DNA of 64,000 bases from Devosia sp. Leaf420. Its GTDB lineage: Bacteria > Pseudomonadota > Alphaproteobacteria > Rhizobiales > Devosiaceae. The notes beneath the pieces were generated by a model. It was not told the origin of the DNA. It made no database searches and saw nothing but the letters and a program-made list of their open reading frames with translations. The DNA lies in NCBI RefSeq assembly GCF_001425445.1, contig NZ_LMQU01000013.1:1-64000 (forward strand). Reading direction: 5' to 3'. Shown here in pieces: positions 23,084 to 43,271 of this stretch (positions are counted from its first letter, which is position 1; each line of letters opens with the position of its first letter). The translations under genes and the position numbers were made by a program.

Positions 23084-23103
23084 GGACGGCTTATCCTTGG
23101 AAA

Positions 23104-23544: not shown

Positions 23545-23630
23545 GGTCTTCCCTCCAATGATGTCGTGATGTCGAACCGTGTCGAACTCAAGCGCACAAT
23601 CATGGTGTTCGGATGTTCTGGCAACGTCGA

Positions 23631-26470: not shown

Positions 26471-26572
26471 GGCGGCTCCGGTATCAGGAGAAACGGGACG
26501 GCAACGGCAAAAGCGCCCGGCCAAGTTTGGCCGTGCGTCTAAGCTGCGTGAAAGCTGTGGTTTTAGAGTCGG

Positions 26573-26998: not shown

Positions 26999-27094
26999 CC
27001 AGGCAAATGGCAGTGGAATTGGTGGTGGTTAAACCATCAATCGCTGCCGATTGCCACGACGAAGACCGGAAAATGCCCAGACGTCTGCGCATGG

Positions 27095-27400
27095 TTAGAG
27101 GGCGCCCATAATCTTTTGGCGGAAGCCGAAAACTTGGCGGTCACCCCCGATCGGGATCAGGCGTACTTTACGGGCTTGGCCTGGCTCAAAGCGCACCGCG
27201 GTGCCTGCAGCTATGTCGAGCCGCATGCCGCGGGTCTTTTCCCGATCAAAGCGAAGGCCGGCATTGGTTTCATAGAAGTGGTAGTGCGAGCCGACCTGGA
27301 TCGGCCGGTCGCCGGTGTTCGCCACTTCGAGGGTCAGTTGCTCTAGCCCTGCATTGAGTTCGATCGTGCCTTGGGCGGGGATGATTTGTCCGGGTATCAT
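27095..27400 (-). CDS. ureB: Urease subunit beta
   Basis: A small structural subunit of 101 residues, the normal length. It begins [18 protein letters not shown] and has the family core [19 protein letters not shown] and [16 protein letters not shown], ending [20 protein letters not shown]. The ATG at 27400 is chosen; a longer open frame running upstream across ureJ is an antisense-like artefact. It follows ureJ after 7 bp. Confidence 0.96.
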
Positions 27401-27407
27401 GCCGACC

Positions 27408-27986
27408 TCACGCTGCAAAAGCGAGCCACAGGCCGCCGAGCGCGGTTGCTGCGCCAGCAATGCGGCCGAGTGTCTTGCCACCGAGGCGGGAGAGCGACAG
27501 GCCGGCCCCGATGCCGACGAGGTGCAGCACAGCAGTGGCGATGACAAAGCCCAGCGCGAATTGCCAAGCGCCCGCTTCGCCAAGCTCGCCGCCATGGGCA
27601 TGACCATGGAAGAAGGCGAAGAAGCCGACCATTGCCGCAACGCCCGCGGTCGGGACCGGGAGGGCGAGTGCCACGGCGATGCCGATGAAGATAACCGAGG
27701 CGAGGATGACGGGCTCTACGAAGGGCAAGGGCACGCCAGCAATGGCAGCGGCAAAGCCGACGGCCATGGTGCCGACGAAGGCTGCGGGAACAATCCATAC
27801 CGCGCGGCCGCCCTGCATGGCGGCCCAGAGCCCGACAGCGACCATGGCAAGGATATGGTCGAGGCCGAAAAGGGGATGGCTGAAGCCGGCAGCGAGGGAA
27901 CCATGTTCGCCGGGGTCAAGATGAGCAAAAGCGGGCATGGTGGCGGCCGCCAGAATGGATAGAGCGATCAGCGCGCGTTTGAACAT
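27408..27986 (-). CDS. ureJ: HupE/UreJ-family membrane protein
   Basis: A 192-residue membrane protein, probably a nickel transporter or metal-supply protein. It starts with a signal-like helix (to AFAHLDP) and then shows the family's His-bearing motif [20 protein letters not shown] at about residues 35-54. Five further helices follow, with a second His cluster [11 protein letters not shown] in between. The His pairs are the presumed metal ligands. It sits between ureA and ureB, where UreJ is usually found in rhizobial operons. Confidence 0.88.
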
Positions 27987-27996
27987 TTTTGCCTCT

Positions 27997-28299
27997 TCAG
28001 CGAATGGGTTGGTGAACGGTGACGAGCTTGGTGCCGTCTGGGAAAGTGGCTTCGACCTGCACGTCGTGGATCATCTCGGCAATGCCCTCCATGACCTGGG
28101 CGCGCGTGATGACATGGGCGCCGGCTTCCATAAGCTCGGATACGGCGCGGCCATCGCGGGCGCCTTCGACGACGAAATCGGTAATCAGTGCAATGGCTTC
28201 GGGATGATTGAGTTTGACGCCGCGTTCGAGCCGCTTGCGCGCGACGATCGCGGCCATGGCGATGAGAAGCTTGTCTTTTTCGCGGGGGGTCAGGTTCAT
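27997..28299 (-). CDS. ureA: Urease subunit gamma
   Basis: A 100-residue structural subunit. Diagnostic stretches are [20 protein letters not shown] at the start, [13 protein letters not shown], the catalytic-trimer segment [18 protein letters not shown], and [13 protein letters not shown] at the end. The ATG at 28299 gives the exact family length; a longer open frame reaching 28803 is not family-like upstream. It lies 11 bp after ureD and 10 bp before ureJ. Confidence 0.97.
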
Positions 28300-28310
28300 C
28301 GGCCGTTTTC

Positions 28311-29165
28311 CTAAAGGTGCCAGAGACGCGGCAGATCGCCGGCGCCAGTCAATTCGATTAGAGTTGGTACAATAAGGCGGCGCAAGGCAAGCCCAGTTGG
28401 CGCCATGGCGCGGATGACGAGACGTTCGCCATTGGCGCTGGCCGCGATCATGTCTTTTCCGGTGTGCTGAAGGCGAAGGCGGTCCAATACGATGTTGGCC
28501 ATATCCGCATTGGCGGCCAAATGGAGAATGGAGGCGAACGCTCGGCAGCCGTCTAGCAGGGACAAACCATCGCGCTCGCTGCCATCGCCCGTCAGGCGGG
28601 TTGCTTCGGCATGGAGCAGGCGGTCTCCGCGATAGATGCGCCAATTGTCGGAGAACATGGCATCGCGGGCTTCCTCGCCCATGGCATCGCGGCCGAGAAG
28701 GACCGCCTCGATCGCCGTCAGCGTTGCGGCAGGTTCGAGCGTGATGTCGAGCGTACGGCTCAGTTTGCTGCCAGCAAACAGGATTGTCTCTTGCGGCAGC
28801 CAATCGAGATGAGCGCCCGCGCCCACGTGGAGTTTGGCTCGGACAAGCGCCGTATCTCCGGTCGAGCGATAGCTGCGTTCGCAGGCCTGAGTGGTGACAA
28901 CCAGTTTGCCGCGGGGCGAAACTTCGGCGGACCAGTCAATTTGGTCTCCGCCAGTAATACCGCCCGCTGTATTTATCAGCACGGCTTCGAGTGCTTGGGA
29001 GTGCGTATGAGGCAGACGTATCTTGCCGCAGCCTTCTTGGAAAAGCGTATCGAGGCAAGTCTTGCCGTCGCGCTGTTTGGTTTTAATGCGCCCAATGCCC
29101 CGCGCTCGTTGCATGAGCGAGGTTGGACGAACTGCCTCTAAATTTGGCTTTACGGCGAAATTCAT
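28311..29165 (-). CDS. ureD: Urease accessory protein UreD
   Basis: The apo-urease chaperone that holds the enzyme during nickel insertion, 284 residues. It shows [49 protein letters not shown] and [19 protein letters not shown], which are family signatures. First gene of the operon, divergent from the small secreted-protein gene at 29242 with a 76-bp gap that must hold both promoters. I saw no good NtrC or sigma-54 site in that gap. Confidence 0.95.
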
Positions 29166-29610: not shown

Positions 29611-29641
29611 GGCACCTGACTTCGGTCAGGTGCCTTTTTTT
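29611..29641 (+). terminator. Strong intrinsic terminator
   Basis: A perfect 10-bp stem GGCACCTGAC/GTCAGGTGCC closed by a TTCG tetraloop and followed by at least seven T. It ends the small secreted-protein transcript and abuts the urtE stop codon, so the hairpin may also shield the convergent urt mRNA end. Confidence 0.92.
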
Positions 29642-30344
29642 ATACCATCAGGTGCTTGCGTACGTCCGGCCGGTCGAGATCACTGGCCGGGCCCTGATGC
29701 ATGATTTCGCCGCGGTCCATGACGTAGATGTTGTCGGAGATTTCGCGGCAGAAATCGAGGAATTGTTCGACCAGCAGTATGGTCATGCCCTTTTCGTCGC
29801 GGAGAAACTGCAGGGCGCGGCCGATGTCCTTGATGATCGAGGGCTGAATGCCTTCCGTGGGTTCATCGAGAACCAGAACTTTGGGTCGGGTGACCAGAGC
29901 GCGACCGATAGCGAGCTGCTGCTGCTGGCCTCCCGAGAGATCGCCGCCCCGCCGTCCAAGCATGGATTTCAGGACAGGGAACAGCTCGAAGATGTAGTCG
30001 GGAATGTTTCTGTCGCTGCGGGCGAGGCCGGCATAACCGGTTTCAAGGTTTTCCTTTACCGTCAGCAGCGGGAAAATTTCGCGCCCTTGCGGCACGTAGC
30101 CGATGCCCATGCGGGCGCGCTTGTATGGTGGCGTTTTTTTGAGCACGTCGCTGCCGAAAGTTATGGCACCCGATGAGATGTGGTTGATGCCGGTAATGGC
30201 GCGGAGGGTCGAGGACTTGCCGACGCCGTTGCGGCCGAGGACGGCCGTGATCTTGCCCGGCTGGCAGTCGATGGAGACGCCCTTGAGCGCCTGCGCGGCT
30301 CCGTAATGAAGGTCGATGGTTGAGATCGAGAGTGCTGCGGTCAT
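29640..30344 (-). CDS. urtE: Urea ABC transporter ATPase UrtE
   Basis: The second cytoplasmic ATPase of the urea importer, 234 residues, LivF-like. It has VLGRNGVGKSSTLRAIT (Walker A), LSGGQQQQLAIGRALV (signature) and VLVLDEPTEGIQPS (Walker B). The MTAALSI start at 30344 overlaps the urtD stop by 4 bp (ATGA). The upstream continuation of this frame is Arg-rich noise and was excluded. It is the last gene of urtABCDE. Confidence 0.95.
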   Translation of the reverse strand: MTAALSISTIDLHYGAAQALKGVSIDCQPGKITAVLGRNGVGKSSTLRAITGINHISSGAITFGSDVLKKTPPYKRARMGIGYVPQGREIFPLLTVKENLETGYAGLARSDRNIPDYIFELFPVLKSMLGRRGGDLSGGQQQQLAIGRALVTRPKVLVLDEPTEGIQPSIIKDIGRALQFLRDEKGMTILLVEQFLDFCREISDNIYVMDRGEIMHQGPASDLDRPDVRKHLMV

Positions 30345-31090
30345 CGTCCAAGATACCTTTCGATCACGACGGGATTCGCGCTCACCTGGTCGAGTGTCCC
30401 CTCCGCCAGGACGGCGCCTTCGGCGAGGCAAACCACGCGCGAACCGAGCTCGCGCACGAAGCTCATGTCGTGCTCGACCACGACCACCGATCTGGTTTGG
30501 GCGATTTCGCGCAGCAGTTTCGCGGTCTCCTCGGTTTCGCTGTCGGTCATGCCGGCGACGGGTTCGTCGACGAGCAGGAGCTTAGGATCTTGTGCAACCA
30601 GCATGCCAATTTCGAGCCATTGCTTCTGGCCGTGGCTGAGATTGGCCGCTAGCTCGTCCTTGCGGTGGAGCAGGCGAACGGTTTCGAGGATCTCGGTGAT
30701 GCGGGCCACGTCATCGTCGCTGGCGGTGTAAAACAGCGTTGCAAAGATGCCGCGGGGTTTTCTGAGCGCCATTTCGAGATTGTGCCAAACTGTGTGACTC
30801 TCGAAGACGGTGGGCTTTTGAAATTTCCGACCGATGCCGAGATTGGCAATCGCGGCTTCGTCCAACTTGGTAAGGTCCGTGCGACCGTCGAACATGACGT
30901 CGCCCGCATCCGGACGCGTCTTGCCGGTGATGATATCCATCATCGTCGTCTTGCCCGCGCCGTTAGGGCCGATGATGGCCAGCATTTCGGTGGGGCGGAC
31001 GATGATCGAGAGATTGTTGATGGCCTTGAAGCCGTCGAAGGCAACCGAGACGCCGTCGAGATAGAGCATCGTGTCTTGGGCTTTGCTCAT
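30341..31090 (-). CDS. urtD: Urea ABC transporter ATPase UrtD
   Basis: The first cytoplasmic ATPase of the urea importer, 249 residues, LivG-like. It has IIGPNGAGKTTMMDIITGKT (Walker A), LSHGQKQWLEIGMLV (signature, with the UrtD-typical KQW) and LLLVDEPVAGMTDSE (Walker B). It follows urtC after 3 bp and overlaps urtE by 4 bp. UrtD is told from LivG by the shorter loop and the VAGMTDSE sequence. Confidence 0.95.
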   Translation of the reverse strand: MSKAQDTMLYLDGVSVAFDGFKAINNLSIIVRPTEMLAIIGPNGAGKTTMMDIITGKTRPDAGDVMFDGRTDLTKLDEAAIANLGIGRKFQKPTVFESHTVWHNLEMALRKPRGIFATLFYTASDDDVARITEILETVRLLHRKDELAANLSHGQKQWLEIGMLVAQDPKLLLVDEPVAGMTDSETEETAKLLREIAQTRSVVVVEHDMSFVRELGSRVVCLAEGAVLAEGTLDQVSANPVVIERYLGR

Positions 31091-31093: not shown

Positions 31094-32287
31094 TTACTCC
31101 GCCGGCCGGGGTTGGGGATTGTCGAAAGTCGACGGGTCTTCGCCGCGTTCGATGTCAGCGGATTGGGTCGGGGTCGGTGCAGCCGGTTCTGCCTTGCGTC
31201 GATTGCCGAAGAGTTGCTTCCAGAGCCCGACAATGCCCTTGGGTAGGAACAGGGTGACGAAGATGAAGAGGGCGCCGAGGGCGAAAAGCCAGAATTCGGG
31301 CAGGGCGCTGGTGAACCAGGATTTGCCCAGGTTGACGACGATGGCGCCGATGATCGGGCCGATCAGGGTGCCGCGGCCGCCGACGGCGGTCCAGATGACG
31401 ACTTCGATCGAATTTCCGGGCTCGAATTCGCCGGGATTGATGATGCCGACCTGCGGAACATAGAGGGCGCCGGCAATGCCAGCCATGATGGCCGAGACGG
31501 TGAAGGCAAAGAGTTTTACGTATTCGACGCGGTAGCCGATGAAGCGCGTGCGGCTTTCGGCGTCGCGCACGGCGACCATGACTTTTCCCAGTTTGGAATT
31601 GACGATCATCGAGCAGACGAGGACTGAAAGCGCGAGAGCGATGGCGGTGGCGGCGAAGAGGACTACGCGAGTTGATTGGGCCTGAACCGGGGCGCCGAGG
31701 ATGTCCTTGAAGTCGGTAAGGCCGTTATTGCCCCCAAAGCCCATGTCGTTGCGGAAGAAAGCCAGGAGCAGAGCGAAAGTCATCGCCTGGGTGATGATGG
31801 AGAGATAGACGCCGGTTACGCGGCTGCGGAAGGCGAAGAAGCCGAAGATGAAAGCGAGGAGGCCGGGCACCAGCACAACCATGGCCATGGCGAACCAGAA
31901 ATTGTCAAAGCCCATCCAGTACCAGGGCAGCTCCTTCCAATTGAGGAAGACCATGAAGTCGGGGAGCGTCGGATTACCATAGACGCCACGGGTGCCGATC
32001 TGGCGCATGAGATACATGCCCATGGCATAGCCGCCGAGCGCGAAGAAGGCGCTGTGGCCGAGCGAGAGAATGCCGCAATAGCCCCAGACGAGGTCCAGCG
32101 CGAGGGCGAGGATAGCGTAGCTGAGATATTTGCCGAGAAGCGAGACGAGATAGGTCGGGACATGGCCGAACTGGCCCGGCGGGATGAGGAGGTTGGCCAT
32201 GGGCACGAAAATCGCCACGGCGAGCAAGATGCCGATAACCCAGATGGCCTTTTTATCGAGGGCGCGGAACAGGGCTTGGGTCAGCAT
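31094..32287 (-). CDS. urtC: Urea ABC transporter permease UrtC
   Basis: An inner-membrane permease of 397 residues with about ten helices. The LivM-type signatures are LGHSAFFALGGYAMGMYL, GVYLSIITQAMTFALLLAF, NNGLTDFKDILG and a late GRGTLIGPIIGAIVVN. A charged tail (about 370-397) follows the last helix. It is separated from urtB by 232 bp that carry a large inverted repeat (32391-32514), yet the order urtA-B-C-D-E is kept. Confidence 0.94.
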   Translation of the reverse strand: MLTQALFRALDKKAIWVIGILLAVAIFVPMANLLIPPGQFGHVPTYLVSLLGKYLSYAILALALDLVWGYCGILSLGHSAFFALGGYAMGMYLMRQIGTRGVYGNPTLPDFMVFLNWKELPWYWMGFDNFWFAMAMVVLVPGLLAFIFGFFAFRSRVTGVYLSIITQAMTFALLLAFFRNDMGFGGNNGLTDFKDILGAPVQAQSTRVVLFAATAIALALSVLVCSMIVNSKLGKVMVAVRDAESRTRFIGYRVEYVKLFAFTVSAIMAGIAGALYVPQVGIINPGEFEPGNSIEVVIWTAVGGRGTLIGPIIGAIVVNLGKSWFTSALPEFWLFALGALFIFVTLFLPKGIVGLWKQLFGNRRKAEPAAPTPTQSADIERGEDPSTFDNPQPRPAE

Positions 32288-32519: not shown

Positions 32520-34124
32520 TCATTGCTCGATCGCCCTTCCCTTGAGGGCAAACAGCCCTCTTGGGCGCCGCTGGATGAAGAGGATGATCAGCACGAGGAT
32601 CAGGATTTTGCCGAGCACCGCGCCGGCATAGGGTTCGAGGAATTTGTTGGCGACGCCGAGCGTCAGCGCGCCGACAAAGGTGCCCCAGAGATTGCCCACG
32701 CCACCGAAGACCACGACCATAAAGCTGTCGATGATGTAGTTCTGGCCGAGATTGGGCGAGATGTTATCGATCTGGGTGAGGGCGACACCCGCAAGGCCCG
32801 CGATGCCTGAGCCGAGGCCAAACGTCATGGCGTCGACGAAGGGGGTGCGGATGCCCATGGCCGAGGCCATGCGACGGTTCTGGGTGACGGCGCGCATCTG
32901 GAGGCCGAGCGGCGTGCGATTGAGGATCAGCAGCAGCATGAAGAAGACGATGAGCGCAAAGATGACGATCCAGAAGCGGTTGTAGGTGATGGCGAGGCCG
33001 AAGAAATCGGTGGAGCCGGACATCCAGGTTGGGGCGATGACCATCTGGTTGGTCGGCCCGAAGATCGAGCGCACGGTTTGCTGCAGGATCAGCGACAGGC
33101 CCCAAGTAGCGAGGAGCGTTTCAAGCGGACGGCCATAGAGCCAGCGGATGATGCCGCGCTCGATGCCGACGCCGATGGCACCGGTAACGAGGAAGGCGAC
33201 GGGCAGGGCGATGAGCAGGGAATAGTCGATGAGGCCCGGGAATGACTGGCGGATAACGAGTTGGGTGAGGAAGGTCGTGTACGCGCCAAGCATGACCATT
33301 TCGCCATGCGCCATGTTGATGACGCCCATGACACCGAAGGTGATGGCGAGACCGATGGCGGCGAGGAGAAGGACGGAGCCAAGCGAGACGCCGAACCAGA
33401 CATTTTGTAGCGCAGCCCAGACGGCGCGGCTTTGTTCGAGGCCGGCAATAGCGGATTGGATGATGGGCTTGACCTCGTCGGGCGCGCTGGCAAGGGCGCT
33501 GGTGAGGACCGTGATGGCACCGCGGCCGGCGCCCGAGACGATCTGCGGCACAGCAGCCTGCTTTTCTTCGATCGACGCGTCTTCGCTCGATAGGACGGTG
33601 ATGGCGCGCGCGGTCTGCATGACGCCGAGCACATTGGCATCGGTCTCGGCGGCAATGGCCTCATCGAGGAGCGGTAGCGCGGCCGGATCGGGATTGGCGA
33701 GGAAACCCTGCGCCGCGGACAGGCGGGTGCGCGGATTGTCGCTCATCAGCGTCAGGCCACCGAGAGCCGCGGAAATATCGCGCCTGAGGCCGTTGTTGAC
33801 GCGAATGCGCGAGAGGTCGGCATCGGCGCCGAGGTCCACCGCTTCGCCAGTGAGGGGATCGGTGATGGCGGAGCCGGTCTGGATGACGACGCGGCCGGAG
33901 GTTTCGTCGAGATAAAGGTTGCCGTCGCCGAGAGCGGTGAGGACGGGGACAACGGCGGGGTCGCCGGTTGCTGCGAGGTCAGTCACGATCTGGGTAAGTT
34001 CGCGCAAATTGGCTTCGCCCATGGCAGCGATGCGGGCGGGAATATCGGTGGTCTGGGCCTGTGCCAAAGTGGAAATGAGAAGCGACAGGGTGAGTAGCGC
34101 CAGGCGGAGAAGTTGAGTCAGCAT
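32520..34124 (-). CDS. urtB: Urea ABC transporter permease UrtB
   Basis: An inner-membrane permease of 534 residues. The N-terminal signal-like helix and the following 220 residues (Ala-rich, GDGNLYLDETSGRVV, repeated helical pairs) form the periplasmic/HEAT-like extension typical of UrtB. The LivH-type permease core begins near 235: FGVMGVINMAHGEMVMLGAY, IRWLYGRPLETLLATWGLSL, GSGIAGLAGVALTQ and VFGGVGNLWGTFVGAL. This pattern separates UrtB from amino acid LivH proteins, which lack the extension. Confidence 0.94.
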   Translation of the reverse strand: MLTQLLRLALLTLSLLISTLAQAQTTDIPARIAAMGEANLRELTQIVTDLAATGDPAVVPVLTALGDGNLYLDETSGRVVIQTGSAITDPLTGEAVDLGADADLSRIRVNNGLRRDISAALGGLTLMSDNPRTRLSAAQGFLANPDPAALPLLDEAIAAETDANVLGVMQTARAITVLSSEDASIEEKQAAVPQIVSGAGRGAITVLTSALASAPDEVKPIIQSAIAGLEQSRAVWAALQNVWFGVSLGSVLLLAAIGLAITFGVMGVINMAHGEMVMLGAYTTFLTQLVIRQSFPGLIDYSLLIALPVAFLVTGAIGVGIERGIIRWLYGRPLETLLATWGLSLILQQTVRSIFGPTNQMVIAPTWMSGSTDFFGLAITYNRFWIVIFALIVFFMLLLILNRTPLGLQMRAVTQNRRMASAMGIRTPFVDAMTFGLGSGIAGLAGVALTQIDNISPNLGQNYIIDSFMVVVFGGVGNLWGTFVGALTLGVANKFLEPYAGAVLGKILILVLIILFIQRRPRGLFALKGRAIEQ

Positions 34125-34177: not shown

Positions 34178-34303
34178 CCACCCCCTCCCAGCCTCCCCCA
34201 TCTAGGGGGAGGTGCAGATTTGTGATTGGGGCTAGATCATGCCCACGTCACCAGCCCTACACCTCCCCCTTTGATGGGGGAGGATGGAGGGTGTGACCCC
34301 TTT
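34178..34303. repeat. Two inverted CCTCCCCC palindromes (BIME-like pair) between urtB and urtA
   Basis: Copy A (34178-34215) and copy B (34254-34303) are each a CCTCCCCC...GGGGGAGG palindrome, and B is an inverted copy of A including flanking CACC/CTCC bases. They are about 40 bp apart. Copy B reaches the urtA stop codon. The arms match the repeat at 5234-5254, so this is a dispersed family arranged here as a head-to-head pair. Confidence 0.7.
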
Positions 34304-35609
34304 ACTGCGCTGGCGTGCCGCCGCAGGTTTTGGTTTCGGTGTTGTAGTTGCCGCAGTTGATGGGGGCGGTCCAATCGGCTTCCAGCATCTTGGATTCCGG
34401 CAGGTAGTCGGACCAGGCGTCACCGGCGACGAGGTCGTCGGTCTGCCAGACCACGAAGAACTGGCCGTCGTCCTGGATTTCACCAATCAGCACGGGCTTG
34501 GTGATGTGGTGGTTCGGGAGCATCTTGGCCATGCCACCGGTCAGGTTCGGCGTTTCGAGGCCGACGATGTTCTCGATCACGGCGTCGGCGTCGGTCGAGT
34601 TGGCCTTTTCGACGGCAGCAACCCAGAGGTTGAAGCCGATCATGTGGGCTTCCATCGGGTCGTTGGTGACGCGGGTGTCCGAGCCGATGAACTTGTGCCA
34701 ATCGGCGATGAACTTTTCATTTTCGGGCGTATCGACCGACATGAAGTAGTTCCAGGCAGCAAGGTGACCCACGAGCGGGGTGGTATCGAAGCCGGAGAGT
34801 TCTTCTTCGCCGACCGAGAAGGCGACGACCGGGATATCTTCGGCCTTGATGCCCTGATTGCCCAGTTCGCGATAGAACGGCACGTTGGCGTCGCCGTTGA
34901 TGGTCGAAACCACGGCGGTCTTCTTGCCTTCCGAACCAAAGGCCTTGATGTCGGAGACGATGGTCTGCCAATCGGAATGACCGAAGGGCGTGTAGTTGAT
35001 CATGATGTCTTCTTTGGCGACGCCCTTGTCGAGCAGGTACTGCTCAAGGATCTTGTTGGTCGTCTGCGGATAGACATAGTCGGTGCCGGCGAGGACCCAG
35101 CGCTTCACCGAGCCGCCATCTTCGCTCATCAGATAGTCGACGGCCGGGATAGCCTGCTGGTTCGGGGAGGCGCCGGTGTAGAACACGTTGCGCTGGGATT
35201 CTTCGCCTTCGTACTGGACGGGGTAGAAGAGCAGCGAGTTCAGTTCTTCAAAGACCGGCAGAACCGATTTACGGCAGACCGAGGTCCAGCAGCCAAAAAC
35301 CACGTCGACATCGTCGACTTCGATCAGCTGGCGAGCGAGTTCGGCGGCCAGCGGCCAATCCGAAGCGATATCGACCACGACCGGCTCAAGCTGCTTGCCG
35401 AGAACGCCGCCCTTGGCATTTTGCTGTTCGATGAGGAACAGCATGGTGTCCTTAAGGGTGGTTTCGGAAATCGCCATCGTGCCCGAGAGCGAGTGAAGAA
35501 TACCGACCTTGATGGTGTCGTCCTGCGCCTGGGCAGGCACCATTGGCATTGTGAGGCTGCCGGCGAGTGCCGCAGCGAGCAAGGCGCTTTTGGCGCGCGA
35601 GAAATTCAT
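34302..35609 (-). CDS. urtA: Urea ABC transporter substrate-binding protein UrtA
   Basis: The periplasmic urea-binding protein, 435 residues. The signal peptide spans about 1-29 (ending PAQAQDD). The mature N-terminus VGILHSLSGTMAISETTLKD and the block GCWTSVCRKSVLPVFEELNS are the UrtA/AmiC-like signatures. LFYPVQYEGEESQRNVFYTG and AGTDYVYPQTTNKILEQYL are also typical of UrtA. The C-terminal region has a Cys pair (NCGNYNTETKTCGG). It heads the urt operon; upstream lies a perfect 16-bp palindrome. Confidence 0.95.
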   Translation of the reverse strand: MNFSRAKSALLAAALAGSLTMPMVPAQAQDDTIKVGILHSLSGTMAISETTLKDTMLFLIEQQNAKGGVLGKQLEPVVVDIASDWPLAAELARQLIEVDDVDVVFGCWTSVCRKSVLPVFEELNSLLFYPVQYEGEESQRNVFYTGASPNQQAIPAVDYLMSEDGGSVKRWVLAGTDYVYPQTTNKILEQYLLDKGVAKEDIMINYTPFGHSDWQTIVSDIKAFGSEGKKTAVVSTINGDANVPFYRELGNQGIKAEDIPVVAFSVGEEELSGFDTTPLVGHLAAWNYFMSVDTPENEKFIADWHKFIGSDTRVTNDPMEAHMIGFNLWVAAVEKANSTDADAVIENIVGLETPNLTGGMAKMLPNHHITKPVLIGEIQDDGQFFVVWQTDDLVAGDAWSDYLPESKMLEADWTAPINCGNYNTETKTCGGTPAQ

Positions 35610-35702: not shown

Positions 35703-35718
35703 TACGTCGATTGACGTA
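35703..35718. promoter_or_regulatory. Perfect 16-bp palindrome upstream of urtA
   Basis: TACGTC-GATT-GACGTA is a perfect 6-bp inverted repeat with a 4-bp spacer, 94 bp upstream of the urtA ATG and 118 bp before the divergent phosphatase start. A dimeric activator such as the receiver-LuxR protein encoded at 41238 would bind this kind of site. The link is inference; I did not find a second copy in the ureD gap. Confidence 0.4.
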
Positions 35719-35786: not shown

Positions 35787-35835
35787 ATGAGACCTTTATG
35801 GGCGGGCCGCGAAACCTAACTCAGTGAGGCCGTTC

Positions 35836-37764
35836 ATGATTTCTCTCAAAACCCTGATACGCTCCAGCGCGCTGGGGCTGCTGCTGGCCACGGGCGCCGT
35901 GGCCCAGGATGCGCCAGCGCGGCCGACAGGTCTCGGCTTTGAAGGCACAGCGCCGACCGCTGAGAACGTCCCCGCCTATATCGAAAACGGCGCCACCAAC
36001 CAGCGCGGCGACGCTTGCATGGCAACGGTCGATACCAATGCCGGCGTGCGGCTGCTGTCGGGCTTTCTGAAGGTTTGGGAACCGTCGACGTTGCTGGTCG
36101 ATGCGGGTGTTGAGGCCGAGGCAAATGGCGATTGCCCCGCGATCGTCAAAAGTGATTGGGACGGCATTCCAGGCTCCGCGACCGATGGCAAAATCCTCGA
36201 TCAGGCTGTGCATGATCACAACATGGATTATGTCGTGCAGGTGACGGCGTCGCGCAGCGCCCAGCAGGCAATCGGCGCCTATCTCGATGACCGCCGCGGC
36301 AAGAATATCAGCATGCTCGATGGGCTCGGCCCGCTTGCAGACGCGTGGAAGAACGGCGCGCATCAGTTCACGACGATCACGCAGGTGCAGCCGGACGCGA
36401 CGAGCGTCAAATATGATGACCATGGCAATAATCGCGGTCTCGGCAGCGTTGGAAACGAAGAGGCCGAGGTCGATGCCAATGAAGATCTTGGCCTCGCAGT
36501 CGATTTCATCAATGCGATGAGCGGCGCTGGTTCGACCGAGCCGGCAAAGCGCTTTTACAAGTATGGCCGTCCGTGGCGTTGGGACAGCGACGTGTTCGTC
36601 GTGCCCGCGCTCGAGCCGGCCAAGAGCGGTTCGGCTGGGACGGATGGCGGGTTCCCGAGTGGTCACACGGCTGAAGCCTGGCGCGATGGCCTGGCCATGT
36701 CCTATCTGGTGCCGGAGCGTTTTCAGGAAATTCTGACGCGGTCCGTGGAGATGGGCGATAGTCGGATCATCGCCGGCATGCATTCGCCGCTCGATGTGAT
36801 CGGCGGTCGTATGCTGGGGACGGCGACGGTCGTCTATAATCTCAATCTTGCGGATAATGCCGAGCTCAAGGTCAGCGCCCGCGCACAGGCACTGGCTTGG
36901 TTGCAGCGCCAGACCGGCACGGAAACTGAGGCCCAGCTCTATACGGCGGCTCACGCTTGGCCGCTGACCGAGGATCGCTTTGCCGATGCTGAGCTGAACG
37001 TCGCCTATGTCGCGCCGCGCCAGTCCTATGGCTTTGAGGCTGTGGCTTCAGACGCAGGGGCCAAGGATGTCGTGCCGACCGGGGCCGAGGTTATGCTCGA
37101 AACCCGCCAGCCGTATCTCACTGCCGAACAGCGTCGCGTGGTGATCAAGTCGACGCTGCTGCCAGCCGGTTTCCCGGTCATGGATGATGCCGAGGGTTTT
37201 GGCCGTCTCGACTATATCCGTGCGGCTGATGGCTATGGTGCCTTCGATGGGGATGTTACAGTTACCATGGATGCGAGCCTTGGTGGCTTCAATGCCCGTG
37301 ACACCTGGCGGAATGATATCGTTGGTGCAGGCATGCTGACCAAGGCCGGGAGCGGCGCGCTTACACTTGCGGGTGACAACGGCTTTACCGGTGGTGTTGT
37401 CGTCGAAGGCGGCGAACTCGTCGCGGCAAGCCGTTCTGCGCTGGGTGCGGGCGACGTCTATGTCGCGGGCGGCACGCTTGCAGTTGGTGCGAGGGGAGTC
37501 GACGTCGGTGGCGATCTGACTGTGCTCGACGATGCCGGTTTGGCGATCCGTGGCCTTGCGGATGAGGCGGTTGCGGTGGCCGTCGAAGGGAATGTGACGC
37601 TGCTCGGCGGGACACTCGACATCACGCTTCCTGAATCGGCAGAAGGCGTTACGCTGGTTTCTGCAAGCGGTATCGAAGGCACCTTCAACGAAGTCCGTCT
37701 CAATGGCGCGGCTGTCGAAGTGACCTATAGCGCGGATGCCATCACGCTGGCTGCTGCCCAGTAA
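35836..37764 (+). CDS. Secreted PAP2 acid phosphatase fused to autotransporter-type strand repeats
   Basis: A 642-residue exported protein; signal peptide 1-24 (ending VAQDA). Residues about 50-345 form a PAP2/class A acid phosphatase with all three motifs: K-X6-RP in KRFYKYGRP (238-246), PSGH in GGFPSGHTAEAW (274-277), and SR-X5-H-X3-D in SRIIAGMHSPLD (309-320). Residues about 475-560 hold a PATR-type unit (LTKAGSGALTLAGDNGFTGG), followed by further strand-rich sequence to the end. No outer-membrane barrel follows, so export beyond the periplasm is not explained. ATG 35836 is chosen over GTG 35824 for the cleaner signal peptide. A PhoB half-site lies upstream. Confidence 0.8.
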   Translation: MISLKTLIRSSALGLLLATGAVAQDAPARPTGLGFEGTAPTAENVPAYIENGATNQRGDACMATVDTNAGVRLLSGFLKVWEPSTLLVDAGVEAEANGDCPAIVKSDWDGIPGSATDGKILDQAVHDHNMDYVVQVTASRSAQQAIGAYLDDRRGKNISMLDGLGPLADAWKNGAHQFTTITQVQPDATSVKYDDHGNNRGLGSVGNEEAEVDANEDLGLAVDFINAMSGAGSTEPAKRFYKYGRPWRWDSDVFVVPALEPAKSGSAGTDGGFPSGHTAEAWRDGLAMSYLVPERFQEILTRSVEMGDSRIIAGMHSPLDVIGGRMLGTATVVYNLNLADNAELKVSARAQALAWLQRQTGTETEAQLYTAAHAWPLTEDRFADAELNVAYVAPRQSYGFEAVASDAGAKDVVPTGAEVMLETRQPYLTAEQRRVVIKSTLLPAGFPVMDDAEGFGRLDYIRAADGYGAFDGDVTVTMDASLGGFNARDTWRNDIVGAGMLTKAGSGALTLAGDNGFTGGVVVEGGELVAASRSALGAGDVYVAGGTLAVGARGVDVGGDLTVLDDAGLAIRGLADEAVAVAVEGNVTLLGGTLDITLPESAEGVTLVSASGIEGTFNEVRLNGAAVEVTYSADAITLAAAQ

Positions 37765-37876: not shown

Positions 37877-40800
37877 ATGCCTCCTCGCCAGCGCATCATT
37901 CCCATTCGGCGCGACTATAATCGCTGGGTCGCAAACCAGACTTTGGAAGATTATGCGCTGCGCTTTACCGCGAAATCGGCACGGCGATTCTCGAATGATC
38001 GCATCTCGCAGACGGCGATCGGGGCGATATCGTTCCTCGCTTTGGAGGCCATAGGCGGTAGCATTACGTTATCGTATGGGACAACCAATGCGCTGATCGC
38101 GATATTCGTCGCGTCCATCGCCATCCTCCTCGTCGGCGTGCCGATTTCGCGTTATGCGACCCGGCATGGGGTGGACGTCGATCTCCTCACCCGTGGCGCG
38201 AGTTTTGGCTATATCGGCTCCACCGTCACCTCACTGATCTATGCGAGCTTCACCTTCATACTTTTCGCCATAGAAGCCTCGATCATGTCGAGCGCCTTGC
38301 AACTGGCTTTCGGTATTCCGCTCTGGATCGGGCACATCATCTCGGCGCTGATCGTTATTCCGCTGGTGACGCATGGGATCAGGATGATCTCGAGTTTTCA
38401 GGTGCTGACGCAGCCGATCTGGATCGTGCTCAATGTCCTGCCCTTCATCTTCATCGCCTTCATGGATTGGGAAAAGTTTGATCTCTGGCGCGCCTTTGCC
38501 GGGCTTGGTCAGCCAGAGGGTGCGGCGGGGACGATTTCGCCGTTCGATATCGCCAAGTTCGGCGCGGCCTCGGCGGTCATCCTGGCGCTGATGACCCAGA
38601 TCGGCGAGCAGGTGGACTTCCTGCGCTTCCTGCCGGCCGAGGGGGCGCCGAAGTGGCGGCAGAAGATCGGGATTTTTCTGGCTGGGGCAGGGTGGGTCGT
38701 CGTCGGCGCGCCGAAACTGATCGCGGGGTCGTTCCTGGCGTTTCTGGCACTGTCGACCGGCGTGTCGCCGGATCACGCGTCAGAACCCGGTTACATGTAT
38801 GCCGTGGCCTTCGACTACATGATCCCCAACCAGTTTGTGGCGCTGATGCTGATGGCGGTGTTCGTCGTCGTCAGCCAGCTCAAGATCAATGTGATGAATG
38901 CTTATGCTGGGTCGCTGGCCTGGTCGAATTTCTTCTCGCGGCTGACGCATAGCCATCCCGGGCGGGTGGTGTGGCTCTTGTTCAATGTGGCCATCGCGCT
39001 GTTGCTGATGGAGCTCGGGATCTATCGGCTGCTTGAAGAGACGCTGGGGATTTTCTCGATCATTGCCATGGCCTGGCTCTGTTCGATTTCTGCCGATCTA
39101 TTCGTCAATAAACCGCTCGGGTTGGCGCCGCCGGGGATCGAGTTCAAGCGGGCTCATCTCTATGACATCAATCCCGTTGGTGTGGGGTCGATGGTGCTCT
39201 CGGTGAGCATTGCGCTGGCCGCGCACTTTGGAGCCTTTGGCGACATGGCTGCGGCGCTGGCGCCTTATATCGCGCTTATCGTCTGCTTCATTGCCTCGCC
39301 CGCCATCGCCTGGGCGACCAAGGGGAAATATTATCTGGCGCGCAAACCGCGAAAGTCTTGGCAGTCGAAAACATCGCTGACCTGCTCGATCTGCGAGCAT
39401 CCATTCGAGCCCGAAGACATGGCCTGGTGCCCGGCCTATGCGGCGCCGATCTGCTCGCTGTGCTGTTCGCTCGATGCGCGCTGCCATGACATGTGCAAGC
39501 CGCATGCGCATTTTCGCGCGCAGACGCATGCTGTGGCCTCAAGCGTGTTGCCGCAATGGGCGATCGAGAAGTTGCAGACGCGGCTCGGGCGCTATGGGAT
39601 TTCCATGGGGATCGCCACGGCGATCCTGGCCAGCATTCTGGCGCTGATTTATTCGTTCGCGAGCCAATCGGCGCCGGAGACGGCGGAGGTAGTGGGCGGA
39701 ACGCTCTTGGTCGTCTTCTTCGTCTTTGCGGTGGCGGCGGGGATCATGACTTGGTTCCTGGTGTTGGCGCATGACAGCCGCTTGGTCGCCGAAGAAGAGA
39801 GCACGCGGCAGAATACGCTGCTGCTCAAGGAAATCGATGCGCACGGAAAGACAGACGCTGAACTCCAGCGCGCCAAGGAGAAGGCCGAGGCGGCCAATCA
39901 GGCAAAGTCGCGCTATGTCGTGGGCCTGAGCCACGAGCTTCGCACGCCACTCAATTCGGTGATGGGCTATGCGCAGATCCTCGAGCGCGATCCGGACGTG
40001 CCGGAAAACCGGCGCGGATCTGTGCAGGTGATCAAACGCAGCGCCGAGCATCTGTCCGGGCTGATCGATGGGCTCCTCGATATTTCCAAGATTGAGGCAG
40101 GGCGGCTGCACGTCTATTCCAACGAGATCAATATCCAGGATTTTCTCGATCAGATCGTCGACATGTTCAGTCTGCAAGCCGCCGCCAAGGGGCTCGAATT
40201 CCGGCATGCACGCGCCAAGGCGCTGCCGCTTTATGTGCGGACCGACGAAAAGCGGCTGCGGCAGATTTTGGTCAATCTCCTGTCCAATGCCATAAAGTTC
40301 ACCCAGTCAGGGCATGTGAACTTTGACGTCGGCTATCGCATGCAGGTGGCAATATTTACGGTGAGCGATACCGGCAGCGGCATTTCCGCTGACGATCTCG
40401 ACCATATTTTCGAGCCCTTCGTGCGGGGCGAGGCGGAGCATAACCGGTTCACGCCGGGGCTTGGCCTGGGGCTGACCATTACCAAGCTGCTGACCGAGAC
40501 GCTGGGCGGCGAGATCACCGTTAGGAGTGCTGTGGGTGAGGGGACCCGATTCCAGGCGCGATTGATGCTGTCCAAGGTCGAGCGGCCGGCTTTGCGACGG
40601 GCCGACCCGCGACGCATCACGGGCTATATGGGTGCGGCGCGGACTGTCATGGTTGTCGATGACAATGATGATCATCGCGAGCTGGTGCGCGAAATGCTGT
40701 CGCCGCTTGGCTTTGTGGTGCTGATGGCGGAGAGCGGATCGGCATGTCTTGATATGCTGGATGCGGCGGAGCCTGATATGTTCTTCGTCGATATTCGGAT

Positions 40801-41251
40801 GCCGGGGATGAGCGGTTGGGAGCTGGTTTCGGCCCTCAGAGCCCGCGCCATTGCCGCGCCGATCGTCATGCTCTCGGCCAATATTGGCGACGGGGCAGGG
40901 CCGGCAAGCGCCGATGCCGGGCACAGTGATACGCTCGCCAAGCCATTTGATCTTGCGCAATTGCTCGACAAGATCAACGCGCACCTGGCGCTTGATTGGG
41001 TCTATGACGAGGCCGTGTCGGCAGTGCAGGAGGCCGAAAAGCCCCTGCACTCGCCGGGGATCGAGCACTTGCGCGAATTGGCCAATCTGGGGCAAATCGG
41101 GCATGTACGGGGGATAGAGGCGAAGTTGGCGGAATTGGCGAACGAGCCAGACAACGCACCGCTTGTCGCCGCGCTGCGCAAGCGGATGGAAACGTTCGAC
41201 TTCGACGGCTATGCCGATATTTTGGAGCGGGTCGGTCATGAGCCGCATTGA
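37877..41251 (+). CDS. Hybrid histidine kinase with NCS1-permease-like sensor and Cys-rich linker
   Basis: A 1124-residue membrane protein. Residues about 35-485 form a 12-helix NCS1 (nucleobase/hydantoin permease) module. A cytosolic cysteine cluster follows: Cys503, 506, 518, 526, 529, 530, 536 and 540, looking like a zinc-binding fold. Two more helices span 575-635. The kinase core has SHELRTPLNS with phospho-His686, N-box LLSNAIKF, DTGSGIS and GLGLGLTITK. The receiver (920-1035) has VDDN, Asp972 and Lys1022. A helical tail (1060-1118) ends it. The stop overlaps the response-regulator gene by 14 bp. The module next to urt/ure suggests sensing of urea, a pyrimidine or a hydantoin-type compound; not shown. 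CbrA (SSS transporter-kinase) is the known analogue. Confidence 0.85.
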   Translation: MPPRQRIIPIRRDYNRWVANQTLEDYALRFTAKSARRFSNDRISQTAIGAISFLALEAIGGSITLSYGTTNALIAIFVASIAILLVGVPISRYATRHGVDVDLLTRGASFGYIGSTVTSLIYASFTFILFAIEASIMSSALQLAFGIPLWIGHIISALIVIPLVTHGIRMISSFQVLTQPIWIVLNVLPFIFIAFMDWEKFDLWRAFAGLGQPEGAAGTISPFDIAKFGAASAVILALMTQIGEQVDFLRFLPAEGAPKWRQKIGIFLAGAGWVVVGAPKLIAGSFLAFLALSTGVSPDHASEPGYMYAVAFDYMIPNQFVALMLMAVFVVVSQLKINVMNAYAGSLAWSNFFSRLTHSHPGRVVWLLFNVAIALLLMELGIYRLLEETLGIFSIIAMAWLCSISADLFVNKPLGLAPPGIEFKRAHLYDINPVGVGSMVLSVSIALAAHFGAFGDMAAALAPYIALIVCFIASPAIAWATKGKYYLARKPRKSWQSKTSLTCSICEHPFEPEDMAWCPAYAAPICSLCCSLDARCHDMCKPHAHFRAQTHAVASSVLPQWAIEKLQTRLGRYGISMGIATAILASILALIYSFASQSAPETAEVVGGTLLVVFFVFAVAAGIMTWFLVLAHDSRLVAEEESTRQNTLLLKEIDAHGKTDAELQRAKEKAEAANQAKSRYVVGLSHELRTPLNSVMGYAQILERDPDVPENRRGSVQVIKRSAEHLSGLIDGLLDISKIEAGRLHVYSNEINIQDFLDQIVDMFSLQAAAKGLEFRHARAKALPLYVRTDEKRLRQILVNLLSNAIKFTQSGHVNFDVGYRMQVAIFTVSDTGSGISADDLDHIFEPFVRGEAEHNRFTPGLGLGLTITKLLTETLGGEITVRSAVGEGTRFQARLMLSKVERPALRRADPRRITGYMGAARTVMVVDDNDDHRELVREMLSPLGFVVLMAESGSACLDMLDAAEPDMFFVDIRMPGMSGWELVSALRARAIAAPIVMLSANIGDGAGPASADAGHSDTLAKPFDLAQLLDKINAHLALDWVYDEAVSAVQEAEKPLHSPGIEHLRELANLGQIGHVRGIEAKLAELANEPDNAPLVAALRKRMETFDFDGYADILERVGHEPH

Positions 41252-42161
41252 GAAAGACCAGGACATTGTCCTTCTCGTTGACGACTCGCCAGAATCACTT
41301 GGCTTTCTGACCGAGGCGCTGGAGGCTGCGGGCGTTACGGTGCTGGTGGCGCGAAGCGGCGAGATGGCGCTCAATATCGTGCAGCGCGTGGTTCCCGATG
41401 TCGTCCTTATGGACGCAGTCATGCCGGGGCTCGACGGGTTCGAGACTTGCCAGAGGCTCAAGTCCATGGCGCCGCTGGCGCATGTCCCCGTTATCTTCAT
41501 GACTGGTCTGACGGAAACCGAGCATATCGTTCACGCGCTCGAAAGCGGTGGGGTCGACTACTTGGCCAAACCGATCAATGTCGATGAATTGCGGGCGCGG
41601 ATCCGGGTACATCTTGCCAATGCACGGCGGGCGCAAAGCGCGCGGATCGCGCTCGATGCGGCAGGCCGCCATCTCGTCGCCTTTGGTGCCGATGGGACCG
41701 TGTTGTGGTCGACGCCGCAAGCAACGAAGCTGCTTGAAAGCTCGAGCCTTGATCTTGGCCGCGCCGATCGACTCTCGCCAGGATTTTTGCACTGGCTGCT
41801 CGAACACGGCGATGGCGCGCCGGGCAGTGGTTTCGATCTTGAAATCGAGAGTGGGCCAAATCTGCAATTTTCGTTTCTGGGTCTCGTTGGTGGGGCCGAA
41901 TATCTGTTCCGGCTGTCGCACGCCCAGGTGGCCGGACAAGAGGATAATCTGCGCCAGCATTTCAGCCTGACCCAACGCGAGAGCGAGGTGTTGCTCTGGA
42001 TCGCGCGGGGGAAATCGAACCGCGATATCGGCGAGATTTTGGGCCTTAGCCCACGCACCGTGAACAAGCACCTCGAACAGGTCTACACCAAGCTCGGCGT
42101 GGAAAATCGCGCCTCCGCGGCGATCAAGGCTATTCAGGCCATGCAGGCGCTCGACCTCTAA
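41238..42161 (+). CDS. Response regulator: receiver plus LuxR-type HTH
   Basis: A 307-residue transcription regulator. The receiver (1-125) has VDDS acidic residues 15-16, phospho-Asp59 in VVLMDAVMPG, the Thr in FMTG and Lys111 in YLAKPIN. A middle domain (about 130-235) is not recognised. The C-terminal LuxR HTH (about 240-305) has LTQRESEVLLWIARGKSNRD and SPRTVNKHLEQVYTKLGVEN. The ATG at 41238 overlaps the end of the kinase gene by 14 bp, so the two are translationally coupled and form one system. Likely target: the palindrome upstream of urtA (inference). Confidence 0.88.
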   Translation: MSRIEKDQDIVLLVDDSPESLGFLTEALEAAGVTVLVARSGEMALNIVQRVVPDVVLMDAVMPGLDGFETCQRLKSMAPLAHVPVIFMTGLTETEHIVHALESGGVDYLAKPINVDELRARIRVHLANARRAQSARIALDAAGRHLVAFGADGTVLWSTPQATKLLESSSLDLGRADRLSPGFLHWLLEHGDGAPGSGFDLEIESGPNLQFSFLGLVGGAEYLFRLSHAQVAGQEDNLRQHFSLTQRESEVLLWIARGKSNRDIGEILGLSPRTVNKHLEQVYTKLGVENRASAAIKAIQAMQALDL

Positions 42162-42503: not shown

Positions 42504-43271
42504 ATGAAAACATCCAAATTTTCGTTGCTTCCTCTGGTCTTGCTTGCGAGTGCAGTAGTACCTGCACACGGCCAGAACTTGCTTGGTGTCATCGGGGCTA
42601 GTGGTGAGAATGCTCTCATCACGATTGGCTCCGGCGACGCGTCAGATACCGGCCTCGTCAATGTTGGCGTTGGCGGGGGAAATCAGGTCCTCGATGTTCA
42701 AGTCGGTGGCCAACATTCCGATATCGCGCGGACCACTGTCGGGGTCGGTGGCGATAGTCTAGTCGATGCCAATGCGGGCCTGTTGAACGATACTGTGAAA
42801 GCCAATGCCACTGTGGGCGGTAGCAGTCTCGCAAATGTGGGCGTGACGATCGGCAATCCGGGAACGCCGGGGAATCCTGGCAACCCGGGGAATCCCGGTA
42901 ACCCAGGTAACCCTGGCAATCCCGGTAACCCTGGTGGACCGGGCACGATGTTCCCGCCCTCTTTGTCTGCATCCAATGGCGGGAACATGCCGAGCTGCAG
43001 CGGGACCAACCCGCGCGAGGTCGAACGCCTGATCCGCAACACGCAGATCGGCGGCAGCTGGCAGAGCGCCAGCAATGTCACGATCCGTCGGGTCGACCTC
43101 TGCCCGGAACTGCAGGCCTGGCTTGCTGCCGCCCTGCAGGGTTCGAACCTGCGGTCGGCCATTGCTTCGGACAGCCTACTCAGCGCTTCGCTCGATCGCT
43201 CGTCCTATAACACCGATCGTGTGTTTGCGGTCCAGCAGCGCGGCAACCAGTTGACGATGTTCGTTTACTGA
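42504..43271 (+). CDS. Secreted collagen-like Gly-Asn-Pro repeat protein
   Basis: A 255-residue exported protein; signal peptide 1-23 (ending PAHGQN). Residues about 28-115 are Gly/Val/Asn-rich with repeated VGVGG.. and VNVGVGGG.. turns, suggesting a strand-repeat domain. Residues 117-147 are about ten consecutive Gly-X-Pro triplets, mostly Gly-Asn-Pro, followed by PSLSASNGGNMPSCSG. The C-terminal domain (about 165-255) is globular, with two Cys and an NTDRVFAVQQRGNQLTMFVY end. Collagen-like segments need three chains to form a triple helix, so a trimeric stalk is plausible. Possible EcfG-like promoter upstream. Role unknown; surface or matrix use is a guess. Confidence 0.75.
   Translation: MKTSKFSLLPLVLLASAVVPAHGQNLLGVIGASGENALITIGSGDASDTGLVNVGVGGGNQVLDVQVGGQHSDIARTTVGVGGDSLVDANAGLLNDTVKANATVGGSSLANVGVTIGNPGTPGNPGNPGNPGNPGNPGNPGNPGGPGTMFPPSLSASNGGNMPSCSGTNPREVERLIRNTQIGGSWQSASNVTIRRVDLCPELQAWLAAALQGSNLRSAIASDSLLSASLDRSSYNTDRVFAVQQRGNQLTMFVY
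42852..42944 (+). repeat. Tandem 9-nt repeat encoding Gly-Asn-Pro
   Basis: Ten 9-bp units of the form GGN-AAY-CCN with synonymous changes at third positions; one unit reads GTP and the last GGP. Because third positions differ, the array is old rather than a fresh slippage. Copy number may vary between strains and change the length of the collagen-like rod. Confidence 0.85.

Follow-up and report, generated by a model that had tools for sequence, protein, structure and literature searches.

An apparently undescribed NCS1-domain sensor kinase and its partner regulator, tied to urea and formamide genes in Devosia and other Pseudomonadota

Introduction

In Devosia sp. Leaf420, a gene for a sensor kinase whose N-terminal half resembles a membrane transporter lies close to the genes for urea uptake. 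The locus raises two questions: what does this kinase sense, and which genes does it control together with the response regulator whose gene overlaps its own? The DNA that we analysed, referred to below as the window, is a stretch of 64,000 nucleotides (contig NZ_LMQU01000013.1, positions 1 to 64,000, of assembly GCF_001425445.1). An initial annotation, made from this sequence alone, had viewed the kinase as a transporter turned sensor, and had suggested urea, a pyrimidine or hydantoin as its ligand.

We find that the sensor system is real, widespread, apparently undescribed, and tied to urea and formamide use. That the kinase and its partner control urt, fmd or ure genes seems very likely. 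The pair is probably a two-component system that senses urea or short-chain amides, with the kinase as a transceptor, and we likewise think it likely that the NCS1 domain senses these compounds directly. The predicted ligand is urea or a small amide because of the gene context, the residues of the putative pocket and a relative linked to urease genes, as set out below.

A transporter-like domain fused to a hybrid histidine kinase

The open reading frame at 37877-41251 on the forward strand, on which all features of this section lie, encodes a single fusion protein of 1124 residues, an NCS1-domain hybrid sensor histidine kinase according to Pfam (HisKA, HATPase_c and Response_reg) and profile alignment with hhalign. 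This long frame is kept in most of 537 relatives and is therefore not a chance open frame; a few homologues, such as L134 and L050, are broken. Hydropathy indicates about 12 transmembrane (TM) segments up to residue 483, and an NCS1-type 12-TM transporter domain is predicted at residues ~20-483 (37934-39325) from hhalign, hydropathy and a low-confidence AlphaFold2 model of the core compared with Foldseek. A lysine- and arginine-rich stretch (residues 478-569) houses a cytosolic, putatively zinc-binding cluster of eight cysteines (residues 503-540; 39383-39496), namely C503, C506, C518, C526, C529, C530, C536 and C540, each invariant in 67 of 67 diverse homologues. Two extra TM segments, which had escaped the initial annotation (residues ~572-634; 39590-39778; 572-600 and 599-634 by hydropathy), end the N-terminal half and lead into the kinase.

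The kinase itself consists of a HisKA domain with phospho-acceptor His686 (residues 677-742; 39905-40102; PF00512, E 2.6e-17), a HATPase_c domain (residues 789-898; 40241-40570; PF02518, E 5.5e-26) and the receiver (REC) domain that makes it a hybrid kinase, with Asp972 (residues 924-1033; 40646-40975; PF00072, E 1.5e-23). In the 67 diverse homologues, the phospho-acceptor His, the N-box Asn and the G1 Asp are present without exception and the REC Asp is present in 65, so that the protein has both the domains and the key residues of a hybrid sensor histidine kinase. The helical tail reported earlier at the C-terminus (40979-41248) is real. It is also variable, is missing from the formamidase-linked copies of the kinase in Devosia, and has no Pfam match at E<=10 over 41000-41248. 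As an alternative, split architecture, two shorter relatives beside formamidase genes (L214 and L247; ~880 residues) stop before the receiver, and L247 also has a separate receiver-kinase protein.

The partner (41238-42161) has a REC domain (Response_reg, E 2.8e-27) and a LuxR-type helix-turn-helix domain (GerE, E 2e-19) by Pfam, and is thus a response regulator of the NarL/FixJ type. Its ATG is probably at 41238, which gives a 14-nt overlap with the kinase gene, whose stop codon is at 41249-41251.

The membrane domain belongs to a diverged branch of the NCS1 family

The transporter family stayed hidden in searches of Pfam, NCBIfam and PDB sequences that used only the one protein as query. With E-values up to 10, the N-terminal 660 residues gave only a chance Pfam match (DUF6594, E 1.2), and PF02133, the NCS1 family, had no direct match to the window protein at E<=10, consistent with a diverged branch. 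A phmmer search of PDB sequences with the first 660 residues gave no match, and a profile of 36 sensor domains gave only a chance match in the same sequences.

The family became visible in comparisons of profiles with hhalign. A profile of the sensor core, built from 89 sensor domains (62 rows of which hhalign used), matched a profile of 31 PF02133 transporters with a probability of 99.4% (E 3.6e-21, 390 columns), i.e. across the transporter core. The same profile reached 13.6% with 30 SSF transporters (SSS or SLC5, the family of CbrA), 0.2% with UrtB and UrtC, and only 13.1% with CodB as a single sequence; the NCS1 and SSF profiles match each other at 90%, being of one fold. The NCS1 references were drawn from our phylum sample because neither the window's genome nor the 12 relatives searched contain PF02133. 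The earlier suggestions of an NCS1-type core, and of a transporter family other than CbrA's, thus agree with the profiles.

Structure prediction added support for the fold. A first AlphaFold2 model (residues 1-660, 42 rows) was poor (pLDDT 55.7), and Foldseek placed a symporter for sialic acid and DUR3, which transports urea, first and Mhp1 sixth, none below E 0.001. For a model of the core only (70 rows; pLDDT 62.0, pTM 0.59, i.e. low confidence), the PDB matches were CodB first (E 1.7e-5), SGLT2 second and Mhp1 third (E 4.2e-5), with other LeuT-fold proteins close behind. The core-only model supports the fold and the profile the family, the model being too weak for claims about side chains. 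On the strength of the profile match, we assign the membrane domain of the kinase to the NCS1 transporter family, as a member invisible to ordinary searches.

Two relatives that have no kinase bridge the sensors to NCS1. One is a 497-residue permease (L220:3949-5442) that scores 36.4 bits with PF02133, for which the cut-off is 23.5, and E 4.8e-25 with the sensor profile. The other is a 535-residue Klebsiella protein annotated as a 'cytosine permease' (L314:7944-9551), which scores 37.7 bits with PF02133 and is 41% identical to the domain in the window. A weak standalone match (L229, from G689) was not used as a bridge, as it lacks an NCS1 match in Pfam.

The Klebsiella gene lies 153 bp downstream of ureG on the same strand, in a urease cluster listed as ureD, two subunits, an insertion sequence element, ureE, ureF and ureG. 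The record is called a plasmid yet carries rpoD and dnaG, and the stretch therefore looks chromosomal. At its C-terminus, the protein has half a cluster, made of two C-x2-C pairs that resemble part of the eight-cysteine cluster of the sensors; its placement in the tree is unsure (long branch). By kinship, this 'cytosine permease' more likely transports urea or an amide, and its place in a urease cluster is the best single pointer to urea as the ligand of the sensors. As a separate observation, the L220 permease gene is followed by a double nitrilase-like gene, read from its translation, and a gene for an UrtA-like binding protein, possibly a cluster for amide or nitrile uptake.

The kinase is associated with urea and formamide genes across Pseudomonadota

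In the window, the start of the kinase gene is 2268 bp from that of urtA (34302-35609, reverse strand), which encodes the binding protein of a urea ABC transporter (TIGR03407, 543 bits, above the cut-off) and is the predicted target of the regulator. We surveyed 136 genomes of the window's family, of which 47 have the sensor. In all 47, urtA is divergently adjacent to the kinase gene (49 loci, counting second copies), as found by comparing match coordinates by hand; the gaps between the two matches range over 294-744 bp, with a wider one of 2364 bp in the window. The 47 include one broken kinase (G061) and one locus spread over two contigs (G050). UrtA exceeds its cut-off in 46 of the 47 genomes with the sensor versus 52 of the 89 without it. 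At the locus with the broken kinase (L134, in G061), the kinase gene is split into several frames beside urtA, urtB and urtC are also fragmented, and urtA and the operator described below are retained.

Beyond the family, the sensor profile matched 26 of 385 genomes in a class sample and 56 of 398 in a phylum sample; the two samples overlap, and four of the 56 matches are short or permease-only (G577, G689, G730 and G780). A search with the Klebsiella permease gave a similar figure of 52 of the 398 sampled Pseudomonadota genomes (~13%). A scan of viral contigs for the sensor found nothing. A profile search of genome contigs yielded the 537 relatives, and urtA is in the examined DNA of 78 of the 80 loci kept, the exceptions being L077, at a contig end, and L102.

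We also read 68 further loci with their flanks, comprising 63 diverse loci and five of a second type in Devosia, with the permease-only L220 and L229 excluded. Genes of the urt, ure or formamidase kind are nearby in 63 of the 68: a urt-like operon with formamidase in 35, urtA alone in nine, urease genes alone in eight (each with ureC and ureG), a second type of urtA alone in five, urtA with urease in four, and formamidase alone in two, which leaves five with none. Urease calls at these loci rest on ureC, ureG or ureD, as the query for ureF was an unconfirmed open reading frame at 21493-22311. The formamidase FmdA was identified by NCBIfam at one locus (L120, 767 bits) and elsewhere by similarity to that protein. 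The two urtA types share ~40% identity, and the second exceeds the TIGR03407 cut-off in the Devosia genomes concerned. Those clusters of neighbouring genes that we annotated are urt, ure and formamidase; several mainly Rhizobium clusters and c23, found at 10 diverse loci, were not annotated. The co-occurrence with urt and ure genes that the initial annotation had proposed to check is thus borne out, and extends to formamidase.

In a tree, urea-linked and formamidase-linked sensors fall in interleaved clades, and ligands are therefore not split by clade. The system is also found on plasmids. The sensor domain is on 525 plasmid records, of which 342 are from Klebsiella, and the one plasmid region examined carries genes for the kinase and formamidase, urtA-E, the operator, and a regulator gene (44% identity) that the gene table does not list. 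A 71% homologue is on a plasmid of Rhizobium tropici CIAT 899. At a further plasmid locus, from Azospirillum (L315), the listed genes include no urt, ure or formamidase gene, the palindrome is absent, and genes for xanthine dehydrogenase follow downstream. In the portions of the literature available to us, a genome paper proposes from colocation that this transporter may carry formamide, in a strain that uses formamide as a nitrogen source (PMC13209695), and the fmd cluster of M. methylotrophus is induced by formamide and by urea (PMC10781810). The pair is thus tied to clusters for short-chain amides (formamide) as well as for urea.

A predicted operator upstream of urtA

The intergenic region between urtA and the kinase gene at Devosia-type loci contains a conserved palindrome, TACGTC-GATT-GACGTA. 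We searched for a relaxed form, TACGY-N6-RCGTA, and a strict form, TACGTC-N4-GACGTA. In the window, the predicted operator TACGTCGATTGACGTA (35703-35718, unstranded) is the sole match to the relaxed form (chance 0.01), and it is the sole match to the strict form in the genome. Its centre precedes the urtA start codon by ~102 bp and is 2166 bp away from the kinase gene.

The relaxed site is present in the stretch that separates urtA from the kinase gene at all 21 Devosia-type loci, all 57 Rhizobium-type loci and 28 of the 44 diverse loci in which the two genes diverge. Counted within 700 bp upstream of the kinase gene, it is found at 21/21 Devosia-type, 34/58 Rhizobium-type, 31/64 diverse loci (which here include the permease-only L220) and 0/5 formamidase-linked Devosia loci, versus means of 0.00-0.03 in shuffled sequences. 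It also lies upstream of the kinase gene at three loci (L172, L175 and L176) where urt, ure and formamidase genes are absent from the examined DNA.

Among the 136 family genomes, the strict site occurs in 44 of the 47 with the sensor, once in each, and in none of the 89 without it, although 52 of these have urtA above the cut-off (Fisher's exact test, 1.5e-32, a figure that ignores kinship and is indicative only). The three sensor-positive genomes that lack the strict site (G010, G035 and G051) all have the formamidase-linked type only. In 43 of the 44 the site is at the locus of urtA and the kinase gene; in G034 it is elsewhere. A selected set of 20 genomes, mostly chosen in the knowledge that their loci carried the site, has it in 16, each time at the kinase locus and with a second site in three; our statistics rest on the unselected 136-genome survey, and the Devosia-type operator loci come partly from species also counted there.

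The position of the site points to urtA as the target. Of the 28 sites at loci where over 600 bp separate urtA from the kinase gene, 25 are at a distance of 89-278 bp from urtA, and in S. meliloti the site is just upstream of urtA with the kinase gene ~8 kb away. Of ten urtA loci in genomes without the sensor, none has the site beside urtA, and one has a match 2.7 kb away. When 17 loci that lack the site were examined together, five had CGTCA-N2-TGACG, the core of the same palindrome; a shared operator for the formamidase-linked Devosia loci was not found. Scanning for consensus sigma-70 promoters found none near urtA. This pattern is what a dedicated urtA operator for the partner regulator would look like, and its co-occurrence with the sensor strongly supports the proposal that the regulator would bind the palindrome and activate urt.

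The putative binding pocket differs from that of Mhp1

To our knowledge, neither Mhp1 nor CodB, two NCS1 transporters of known structure (PDB 2jln and 7qoa), has a kinase. Both align with the sensors and with NCS1 proteins through one profile. The substrate of Mhp1 is held by pocket residues that include a tryptophan clamp, and sodium by the residues of the sodium-2 site. We read the Mhp1 numbering from the PDB alignment, took the correspondences from the alignment of the sensor and NCS1 profiles, and counted residues in 67 diverse sensors.

W117, Q121, W220 and N318 of Mhp1 correspond to L129, E133, L238 and N341 of the window protein; K336 and I337 occupy the places of the sodium ligands S312 and T313, and the correspondence of Q42 to F53 is less sure. 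Among the 67 sensors, position 129 holds F in 57 cases and L in 10, position 238 holds L in 65, and E133, K336, N338, N341 and F53 are invariant. The sensors thus have neither the tryptophan clamp nor the sodium-2 site of Mhp1: according to the alignment, the aromatic clamp for ring substrates is missing at TM6 and altered at TM3, with a lysine at the sodium position. Loss of the clamp together with this lysine argues against nucleobases and hydantoin as ligands, and favours a smaller compound and a domain that does not depend on sodium. Since the kinase-free relatives have similar residues (Glu and Lys in the Klebsiella protein, Glu and Arg in L220), they are traits of the subfamily and do not reflect decay in the sensors.

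Comparison with known systems

Other sensor kinases fused to a transporter domain are CbrA, CrbS/MxtR and RpuS, of which CbrA, CrbS and RpuS consist of an SLC5 domain, a STAC domain and a kinase, and CrbS is also a hybrid kinase, with a LuxR-type partner that needs an inverted repeat in the promoter (PMC7096432, PMC5715377, PMC9100948, PMC13022988, as far as the accessible text of these sources goes). The Devosia kinase family works like CbrA and CrbS but derives from another transporter family. Instead of SLC5 (SSS) and STAC, it has NCS1 followed by the eight-cysteine cluster and two TM segments, and instead of histidine, acetate or pyruvate, which the accessible text gives for the CbrA/CrbS group, it is linked to urea and amide genes. 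An SLC5 domain is not supported, given the low score of the SSF profile (13.6%), and no STAC domain was seen, as Pfam has no match at E<=10 between the TM core and residue 660, where a diverged STAC is conceivable.

Ks-Amt5, from an anammox bacterium, is likewise a transporter of a nitrogen compound turned into a histidine kinase sensor, but its domain is that of an Amt ammonium transporter, whereas the Devosia family has NCS1 and urea/amide genes (PMC5764959, in its accessible part). EupR of Chromohalobacter is likewise a NarL/FixJ-type regulator with a proposed transporter-domain hybrid kinase; we rejected EupR/Csal869 as the same system, as the kinase has SSF and PAS domains, the role is in ectoine uptake, and the text mentions neither urea nor urt (PMC2964678). 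Probably the same system is a hybrid kinase with a LuxR regulator at urtABCDE operon III of Ectopseudomonas guguanensis G3, which has an fmdA locus tag nearby; that 2026 account is one of annotation, and its available text does not mention NCS1 or describe an operator or a function (PMC13296017). We found no described NCS1-fused kinase in the literature searched, which covers few of the subscription journals.

Proposed mechanism and alternative explanations

We propose that urea or a small amide would enter the central pocket of the NCS1 domain, lined by the invariant Glu133, Asn341 and Phe53 and free of the tryptophan clamp, and that the domain need not be sodium-driven, with the invariant Lys336 in place of a sodium-2 site ligand. 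A conformational change, as the order of domains suggests, could pass through the cysteine cluster and the last two TM helices (TM13-14) to the kinase, which should be competent going by its conserved residues. The kinase would phosphorylate the regulator, as the overlapping genes suggest, either directly or through its own REC domain and a phosphotransfer step. Comparison of loci suggests that the regulator would then bind the palindrome ~100 bp upstream of urtA and activate urtABCDE together with the urease genes that follow; relatives would have a urt-like operon with formamidase, or urease genes, as targets.

Several observations weigh against this proposal. Adjacency does not name the ligand, so general nitrogen status or another amide is possible. 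At five of the 68 further loci (L172, L175, L176, L178 and L184), the examined DNA lacks urea and amide genes. The relaxed site is found at none of the five formamidase-linked Devosia loci and is absent at 16 of the 44 diverse divergent loci, and the motif therefore varies or other regulators act there; at three of the 28 widely spaced loci (L179, L180 and L183), the site is nearer the kinase gene. No Hpt domain was found in a Pfam search of the window's proteins, which bears on the phosphorelay route. Finally, both fold models are weak, and their Foldseek matches mix NCS1 with other LeuT-fold families.

We considered four other explanations. In the first, the pair regulates urt, fmd or ure genes through the palindrome, but the signal is a general one, such as nitrogen state, redox or a metal at the cysteine cluster, and the NCS1 domain is an anchor or modulator. 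The invariance of the cluster, and the fact that urease is a metal enzyme, fit this idea, which we nevertheless hold to be somewhat unlikely: the five pocket residues are as invariant as the cysteines, and the kinase-free Klebsiella relative keeps the pocket Glu but only half of the cluster.

Another explanation, unlikely in our estimation and overlapping with the direct sensing that we favour rather than excluding it, is that the domain is mainly a working urea or amide permease and that the kinase reports flux, not binding. CbrA both transports and signals (PMC7096432, accessible text), and stand-alone relatives occur in a urease cluster and beside nitrilase-like and UrtA-like genes. Ks-Amt5, on the other hand, binds ammonium without translocating it (PMC5764959, accessible text), so by analogy transport is not required, and a urea ABC transporter already adjoins the kinase.

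Quite improbable is a sensor that reads a nucleobase, hydantoin or allantoin, and so links purine or pyrimidine breakdown to urea uptake. Known NCS1 proteins do carry such compounds (PF02133 description; Mhp1, CodB), and genes for xanthine dehydrogenase follow the pair in A. ramasamyi. The Trp-Trp-Gln set of Mhp1 has, however, become Phe/Leu, Leu and Glu in the sensors, the Glu in all 67, and the annotated clusters of neighbouring genes are those for urea and formamide. Of the ligands suggested in the initial annotation, a pyrimidine or hydantoin is thus weakened. Last, a passive syntenic block with a palindrome that serves some other regulator is very improbable indeed: near relatives do share synteny by descent, so that counts within the family are not independent, but the association recurs across Pseudomonadota with two transporter types and lone urease clusters, and the strict palindrome is, within the family, confined to genomes with the kinase, and the site mostly lies near urtA, not the kinase gene, when the two are apart.

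Direct sensing of urea or small amides by the NCS1 domain therefore remains our preferred explanation. A more far-reaching proposal, whose chances we consider about even, is that these proteins are the first NCS1-derived receptor family, in which urea or small amides bind directly to the kinase, in an NCS1 pocket that has been remodelled (Glu for the Gln of Mhp1, no tryptophan clamp, Lys for sodium), which controls urea or formamide uptake, often through a single strict operator per genome, in about one in eight sampled Pseudomonadota genomes, and which has moved to Klebsiella plasmids together with transporter and formamidase genes.

Gene neighbourhood in the window

The genes that follow urtA, all on the reverse strand, are urtB (32520-34124; TIGR03409, 421 bits), a urtC-type permease gene (31094-32287; BPD_transp_2, E 6.2e-43, and its conserved order after urtB), a urtD-type ATPase gene (30341-31090; ABC_tran, E 1.6e-29) and urtE (29640-30431; TIGR03410, 327 bits). 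With UrtA above its NCBIfam cut-off and UrtB and UrtE present, the operon is a urtABCDE operon. Behind it is a block of urease genes on the same strand (20877-29165; Pfam and NCBIfam), with ureD (28311-29165) and a HupE/UreJ gene (27408-27986) from Pfam, and ureB (27095-27640), ureC (24761-26524), ureE (22613-23083) and ureG (20877-21509) from NCBIfam. Neither ureA nor ureF was pinned down; the open reading frame at 21493-22311 was rejected as ureF, as it has no match in Pfam or NCBIfam.

Between urtA and the kinase gene lies a gene for a protein with a PAP2 phosphatase domain and autotransporter repeats (35824-37764, forward strand; Pfam PAP2 and PATR). This gene is not part of the conserved system, because none of the 21 Devosia-type loci (L039-L059) has a PAP2 match; there, the aligned starts of urtA and the kinase gene are 189-306 bp apart, or 672 bp in one case. 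A homologue of 55-59% identity is at the same place on the opposite strand in 12 Rhizobium loci (such as L091, L096 and L105). Just downstream of the regulator gene, 42504-43271 (forward strand) encodes a short, secreted-looking protein with a collagen-like GNPGNPG repeat.

Implications

Sensor kinases derived from transporters are few: in the literature that we compared, they comprise one Amt kinase and those of the SLC5-STAC type. If the family arose separately, from NCS1, the route from transporter to receptor would have been taken repeatedly, here with coupling by a cysteine cluster in place of STAC. Our results also predict that the Klebsiella protein annotated as a 'cytosine permease', encoded next to urease genes, in fact takes up urea or an amide. 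With a single strict site in most of the genomes tested, the regulon would be small, and ligand, operator and output would be open to direct tests. If our explanation is correct, many Pseudomonadota, root-nodule bacteria included, would have a membrane sensor dedicated to the uptake of urea and formamide.

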